From the NCBI RefSeq assembly GCF_000426625.1, contig NZ_KE384547.1, forward strand, positions 62,001 to 126,000: DNA of 64,000 bases. The letters are read 5' to 3'. Positions 11,472 through 15,556 of this stretch are shown piece by piece. Position 1 is the stretch's first letter, and each line of letters opens with the position of its first letter. Origin of the DNA: Psychrilyobacter atlanticus DSM 19335. Its GTDB lineage: Bacteria > Fusobacteriota > Fusobacteriia > Fusobacteriales > Fusobacteriaceae. A model generated the notes under the pieces. That model made no database searches, had not been told where the DNA came from, and saw only the letters and a list, made by a program, of their open reading frames with translations. Position numbers and translations under genes: made by a program.

Positions 11472-11981
11472 TTATAATCTATCTTCTATATACCTTACCC
11501 ACTCATCATTTCTTAAAGCTTTTTTTAACCTCTTATGGAGTTCTTCTTTTGTTTTCAACGTTATTACTCCTACCATATAATCTTCTAAATCGATAGCAAA
11601 AATTTCTCCATCTTTTATTAAAAAATTTCTCGGAGCAAAATCACTGTGATATATTTTATTTTTTAAAATTTTAATTATGAGATTTAAAAATTTTTCTATA
11701 ACAACACTATCTTTGTTTTCGTCTAAATATTCAGATAAAAGAACTCCTTTAAGCTCCTCCATAACTACCTTATATTTAGAGTACTCAATTATTTTAGGAG
11801 TTTTTATTCCTATTTTATTAAGGGTTTTAGCTACAAGATCAAAATTTTCTCCAGGATATTTTCTTAACCTAAAAAAATACTTTAATTTTTCTTCAAATTT
11901 TGGATAAAACTCTTTTACATACATTTCTTTATTTCTATCATAATAAACTCTTCTAGTTTTATGATCTACTATTATCTTTAT
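11472..11981 (-). CDS. RfaY/WaaY-like LPS core kinase, probable AUA start
   Basis: A small protein-kinase-fold protein with the catalytic loop HSDFAPRNFL and the metal-binding AIDLEDY, as in LPS heptose kinases of the RfaY/WaaY group. The first ATG is at 11924 (150 residues) but has no ribosome site. The frame is open upstream, and an ATA codon at 11981-11979 lies exactly 7 bases after an AGGAGG. Initiation there would add IKIIVDHKTRRVYYDRNKE and give 169 residues with a normal N-terminal strand. No ATG, GTG or TTG occurs in frame between the preceding gene's stop and 11924. Short for the family. Would phosphorylate an inner-core sugar in the cytoplasm. Confidence 0.75.
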   Translation of the reverse strand: MKIIVDHKTRRVYYDRNKEMYVKEFYPKFEEKLKYFFRLRKYPGENFDLVAKTLNKIGIKTPKIIEYSKYKVVMEELKGVLLSEYLDENKDSVVIEKFLNLIIKILKNKIYHSDFAPRNFLIKDGEIFAIDLEDYMVGVITLKTKEELHKRLKKALRNDEWVRYIEDRL

Positions 11982-14815: not shown

Positions 14816-15547
14816 CTATATTTTCCAACCCTTGTCTCTTTTCTTTTTTTTCCATTTTTTTATATTGGATACAAAGCCTAACCTCTTATATTTTTTTGTA
14901 AATACAGCTAAATAATACCAAAAATCTTTTTTATGCTCTGCATAGCTCTCAAAATCATCTATATTGTCGTGATCTAAAGTTATAAAGTCATATCTTTGTT
15001 TAAATGGTGTCCACGCTTTTTTTCCCTGAGTATCTATAATTTTCATCCCATCTTTTGTCCAGATAAAATTAGAAGGGTTAAAATCCCCATGATATACTCC
15101 TAACTCATGCATCTTTAATCCTAATTTTATCATTTCAGGAATGTTCTCTGTCCCATCTTTCCCTTCAGCGTATTCAAATACAATATATGATTCCTTTATC
15201 ATGCCTTTGGTTCTTCGTACTACAACTAAAAGAGGTGCAACTAACTCTGTAAGTCCTCTATTTCTTAATTTCGTTATATTTTTTAATGTAGCCAAAGCTT
15301 CTCCCTCTTTAAACAGGGTCCCTGCTCTTCTTTGAGGTATTCTATATTCATTTCTAGGTGACTTCAAAACATAATATTTATTATTAAATTTTATTTTAGA
15401 AACATAATTTCTCTGACTTTCTTTAAAAACCTGTACTTCTTCTATTTTTTCTTCATCAGCTAGTTTTTTCCCCAAATCCAAAAGATTTTTCTGCTCATCT
15501 AAATAATAAATTTTCCATTCTTTGTAATTTTTTTTTAAAATTTCCAT
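14816..15547 (-). CDS. RfaY-like LPS kinase
   Basis: A 243-residue protein-kinase-fold protein: [17 protein letters not shown] in the small lobe carries the nucleotide-contacting lysine, [11 protein letters not shown] near residue 160 is the catalytic loop and [12 protein letters not shown] the metal-binding aspartate. These match RfaY-type heptose kinases. ATG at 15547 has AGGTGG 5 bases upstream, and the preceding glycosyltransferase stops 9 bases before it. Third of four kinase-like genes in the region; acceptor sugar unknown. Confidence 0.85.
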
Positions 15548-15556
15548 TTTTACCAC

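Follow-up and report, generated by a model that had tools for sequence, protein, structure and literature searches.

A small kinase gene of a surface-polysaccharide operon, on the minus strand (11981-11472) of the window, i.e. the whole stretch of 64,000 nucleotides of Psychrilyobacter atlanticus DSM 19335 analysed here, is in all likelihood translated from an AUA codon (11981-11979), through weak initiation by fMet-tRNA at a site set by a Shine-Dalgarno sequence. The codon would have arisen by an ATG to ATA change in the stem of the genus and was probably kept for the low dose of enzyme that it provides. Comparison of the homologues shows the probable position of the gene start and the ATA that occupies it in three species.

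The start region

Read on the minus strand, the sequence consists of AGGAGG (11994-11989), a 7 nt spacer CAGAAAA (11988-11982) and ATA (11981-11979), the latter running on into AAG ATA ATA GTA GAT. The frame is open from the TAA of the upstream gene (12008-12006) to its own stop (11474-11472), comprises 169 codons counted from the ATA, and is translated after the upstream TAA as RLKLGGRK-IKIIVDHKTRRVYYDRNKE-M20. Between this TAA and the ATG at 11924 the frame contains no ATG, GTG or TTG; the ATG (11924-11922, residue 20) is its first canonical codon and is not preceded by a Shine-Dalgarno sequence. A sequence-only reading of the region had singled out the ATA as the only start signal in a suitable position, and our inspection leads to the same description. 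In addition, no ATG, GTG or TTG is found in any frame from the Shine-Dalgarno sequence to about codon 13 in any of the three species that carry the gene, so that an out-of-frame start followed by a shift would have no obvious entry point. Folding of the RNA at the start in the three species gave nothing stronger than was obtained with shuffled sequences.

Comparison with homologues

Homologues were searched for in 98 genomes of the phylum, eight of which belong to the same genus. Close homologues are present in three of these eight, namely in G000 (the genome of the window), in G006 (UBA2433, contig DDQV01000102.1) and in G007. Of the five genomes of the genus without the gene, four have a listed completeness of 62-81% and one of 99%, and only for the latter is the absence firm. 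The two congener proteins are 63-66% identical to that of the window. All three carriers follow the pattern GGAGG[C/T/G]AGAAAA-ATA-AA[A/G], with identical spacing between the Shine-Dalgarno sequence and the ATA, and the full AGGAGG hexamer is also the same in UBA2433 and G007.

Outside the genus but within the family, nine homologues, that of Ilyobacter polytropus pILYOP01 among them, have ATG as the aligned codon, at an identity of 51% or less; the alignment at the start reads K-M-EIIVDHK in Ilyobacter polytropus vs. RK-I-KIIVDHK in the window. In most of the remaining homologues outside the genus the Met lies one or a few codons off the ATA position. An alignment of this kind had been suggested as a check on the proposed start, and it agrees with it: the proteins of the sister genera begin at the ATA position or a few codons from it (MEIIVDH in Ilyobacter; MDIIVDH, MKIIS and MKIIVSH in others). 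It had also been considered that all homologues might begin at the ATG at 11924, which is not what we see, as two congeners lack a Met there. The first in-frame ATG, GTG or TTG is codon 20 in the window, codon 65 in G007 and codon 138 out of 167 in UBA2433, hence in the latter two species the kinase could not be produced from any canonical start.

A Shine-Dalgarno sequence followed by ATA is a common motif that proves nothing on its own, and it is the comparison between species that carries the case. The simplest history would be one ATG to ATA change in the stem of the genus that was kept afterwards; the case for conservation of the AUA draws on three carrier species only.

Coding constraint

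Purifying selection acts on the kinase gene, which is intact. The whole-gene dN/dS among the three species is 0.18-0.29, and in codons 2-64 a dN of 0.10-0.18 is found against a dS of 0.48-0.72; codons 2-19 taken alone have too few synonymous sites for a statement on dN/dS. As codons 2-64 are constrained and the first canonical codons of the congeners are found only at 138 and 65, the start must be near the ATA. The frame is free of stops in the three species over a dS of 0.7-0.9. When neutral drift was simulated with 0.35 substitutions per site, in a simple model without indels, about 11 stops appeared in the frame and none of the 2000 runs stayed stop-free.

There are two further points that need to be discussed. 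In 16 out of 27 conserved K/E/Q columns the three species all have A as the third base; since an A in this position is common anyway, the A of the ATA kept in three species is by itself weak evidence of selection. In addition, of the five neighbouring genes that were compared, four evolve more slowly than the kinase gene, with a dN/dS of 0.07-0.13, and the second WaaY-like gene has 0.15-0.26. Such a rate is compatible both with a minor enzyme expressed at a low level and with relaxed constraint, so that the ATA may not be selected but tolerated, the gene being only weakly needed.

Identity of the kinase and its neighbourhood

The best Pfam match of the protein is RIO1 (31.8 bits, gathering cut-off 22), and the nearest solved sequences are RIO2. 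The residues K23, D114, N119 and D131 are invariant across nine homologues; by analogy, K23 would be the catalytic Lys, D114-x4-N119 would correspond to the Asp-x4-Asn motif, and D131 to the metal-binding Asp. The protein stays below the cut-off of the WaaP/Kdo family (16.4 vs. 21.3 for Kdo) and gives no match to WaaY/RfaY. The label RfaY-like that the gene had been given is imprecise; the WaaY-family protein is the product of the gene just upstream (12686-12006, minus strand). The neighbours of the kinase gene are heptosyltransferase-type GT9 genes and two WaaY-family kinase genes, which suggests a role in the phosphorylation of the LPS core or the envelope. The term LPS kinase is drawn from the operon setting; the profile is that of a small RIO/Bud32-like kinase. 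An AlphaFold model built from two sequences has a mean pLDDT of 57, with values below 50 for most of residues 1-45; it shows strands at 3-6, 11-16 and 19-24, but the model as a whole is too weak to use.

The downstream gene (11449-9425, minus strand) encodes a sulfatase/LtaS-like transferase and is a conserved neighbour in G007, where it is 90% identical. The GT9 glycosyltransferase gene of the operon (13772-12747, minus strand) has a TTG start behind GGAGG that the two congeners share, so the operon holds a weak start besides that of the kinase gene. Between G000 and G007 the flanking genes are approximately 86-94% identical, the AUA kinase 65% and the second WaaY-like kinase (14816-15556, minus strand) 58%. 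For both kinases G006 and G007 form the more similar pair and G000 stands apart, which suggests that the two genes may have been replaced, or may be fast-changing, in the lineage of the window.

Starts in the rest of the genome

Our survey of starts covered 464 kb of G000, about 13% of the genome, and took in 378 ORFs chosen for their codon bias. The best start bearing a Shine-Dalgarno sequence was ATG in 319, TTG in 34 and GTG in 14 of them, and 11 had none. The kinase is the only candidate among the 378 in which a Shine-Dalgarno match of at least 6 nt stands before ATA, ATT, ATC or CTG and the first canonical codon, itself without any Shine-Dalgarno sequence, follows at least 15 codons later. 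Except for infC, which was recognised by homology, no second convincing gene with a near-cognate start was found among these ORFs. The motif AGGAGGN{5,8}ATA occurs 298 times genome-wide vs. 561 times for the reversed control, which is not a fair null. We rejected the idea that this genome uses AUA starts generally, given that the motif reaches about half the count of the control and that the 378 ORFs hold no second case. Outside the window, near 444938 of contig G000:C2 and at position 382938 of the concatenated stretch surveyed, lies an open frame of 108 codons whose codon usage resembles that of coding DNA and whose first 60% lacks a canonical start; it could be a damaged gene or a further case of an unusual start.

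The components of the initiation machinery were also inspected. An altered initiator tRNA was rejected, as the copies that were read are normal (CAU anticodon, GGG:CCC stem; none was seen in G006, where the query did not match), and IF3 is present in the genome. The infC gene of the genus has a Shine-Dalgarno sequence followed by ATT (TTGGAGGTGACTATTATTTCT). In genus g7 (G013 and G025) the corresponding codon is ATA, with no other in-frame start near the Shine-Dalgarno sequence, and nearly all genomes read from family f4 also have ATA (TAGGAGGTGTTYTTTATAARAGG), with ATT in G057. At the infC loci L088 to L093 and L114 to L141 the start is about 8 nt after the Shine-Dalgarno core. It appears that infC in Fusobacteriota starts at AUU in this genus and in most of the Fusobacteriaceae that were read, and at AUA in g7 and in nearly all of the f4 genomes read, an assignment based on homology and on the placement of the Shine-Dalgarno sequence, since a GTG overlaps the latter in several cases and an upstream in-frame ATG or TTG is found in g1.

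Alternative explanations

Translation from the ATG at 11924 would give a protein of 150 residues and leave the 19 upstream codons untranslated. No canonical start precedes this ATG in the window copy, and a standard ORF list reports it, but it is very unlikely to be the one that is used, given the missing Shine-Dalgarno sequence, the Val or Ile that replaces Met20 in the two congeners with their late canonical codons, and the sister-genus proteins that start at or near the ATA position. Moreover, the invariant Lys23 stands just three residues after Met20, so that a start here would remove everything before it and should break the N-lobe. Another explanation has the kinase fused to the C-terminus of the WaaY-family protein encoded upstream, by read-through or frameshifting; in the window the TAA of that gene is indeed in the kinase frame and only 24 nt from the ATA. 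However, in the congeners the upstream stop is 34 nt from the ATA and in frame +1, while the distance between the Shine-Dalgarno sequence and the ATA is fixed, and the homologues of other genera are free-standing genes with an ATG of their own. As the frame relation of the upstream stop differs between species and the ribosome site and the ATA are conserved, we rejected such a fusion as extremely improbable. A sequencing error that turned ATG into ATA in the window assembly is conceivable as a general possibility only, and its probability is close to nil: the same ATA is found in three independent genomes of different species, which excludes a single base-calling error.

The AUA might also be a tolerated defect, i.e. 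a good start was lost in the ancestor and a little-used or slowly decaying gene is translated only by leakage. This explanation differs from the one that we prefer in the purpose of the start and not in its site. The dN/dS of the kinase gene, higher than that of most neighbours, would agree with it, and so would the divergence of the kinase copies, those of the two congeners being closer to one another than to that of the window, though the flanking genes place G000 closer to G007. There is also a precedent in group A Streptococcus, where the ATA with which ralp3 begins was read as an indication that the gene is little translated (PMC11238559). Nevertheless, the frame has stayed intact and stop-free in the three species over the dS given above, the kinase residues are kept, dN/dS is well below 1 and the Shine-Dalgarno sequence is conserved exactly, and we consider a mere defect unlikely.

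Proposed mechanism and known systems

With the AUA as a functional start, the full AGGAGG, 7 nt upstream, would position the 30S subunit at the AUA, where the ordinary initiator fMet-tRNA (anticodon CAU) could pair at two of the three codon positions. IF3 would discriminate against this pairing, so that initiation would work, but weakly. The ATA was probably retained since a low dose of an envelope kinase suffices or is preferred, and the AUA start probably keeps the output of the enzyme low. We infer fMet as the first residue, a low expression, selection for the ATA and, from the chemistry of AUN starts and the AUU or AUA start read for infC in the phylum, control by IF3. The infC gene itself, which encodes IF3, is autoregulated via AUU, AUC or AUA starts. 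The kinase gene is similar to it in having a near-cognate AUN start whose weakness would be read by IF3; the infC start is apparently AUU in this genome and AUA in related families. The feedback of infC is homeostatic and acts on IF3 itself, whereas the kinase would be at most a passive follower of the IF3 level. We speculate, though with considerable doubt, that kinase output follows this level and, with infC itself on AUU, would rise as initiation fidelity drops. If this is true, a surface modification (probably by an LPS-core kinase) would be tied to the state of the translation machinery.

It is useful to compare this start with those described in other bacteria. AUA starts had been called very rare in bacteria, which is a fair statement, though conserved AUA starts were reported in 2026 in Staphylococcus, in the ccpN, infC and citZ genes of Staphylococcus aureus (PMC13009471). 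Like the kinase gene, these combine an AUA start with a strong Shine-Dalgarno sequence and conservation across species (that of ccpN being common to Bacillus subtilis), and those that were measured gave about 10% of the AUG output, with ccpN reaching up to 30% in rich medium (PMC13009471). They are regulator, initiation-factor and central-metabolism genes of Bacillota, whereas here we deal with an envelope kinase of Fusobacteriota; they were mapped by retapamulin ribosome profiling, and ccpN and citZ were tested with reporters (PMC13009471), whereas the kinase start comes from sequence comparison. In Streptomyces, the GTC start of sigR is repressed by IF3, so that IF3 can hold down a gene other than infC (PMC5472188). 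This system resembles ours as a conserved non-canonical start that keeps one non-infC protein scarce, and it differs in its codon and in being experimentally proven (PMC5472188). Finally, ralp3 of group A Streptococcus emm4 has ATA where a relative has ATG, but there the change is at the level of a lineage, in a gene thought to be little translated, and is not a genus-wide conserved start (PMC11238559).

In a limited search of the open-access literature we found no report of a conserved AUA start in Fusobacteriota. A conserved AUA start with a strong Shine-Dalgarno sequence is of a kind already known, and the kinase gene is an added member. Few AUA starts outside infC are conserved across species. 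Gene callers that accept only ATG, GTG and TTG will truncate the kinase gene in one species, and in another they will overlook all but a small part of it. With its ATG-bearing homologues in sister genera, the kinase gene is a clean test case for the question of whether selection keeps weak starts in order to keep a protein scarce.
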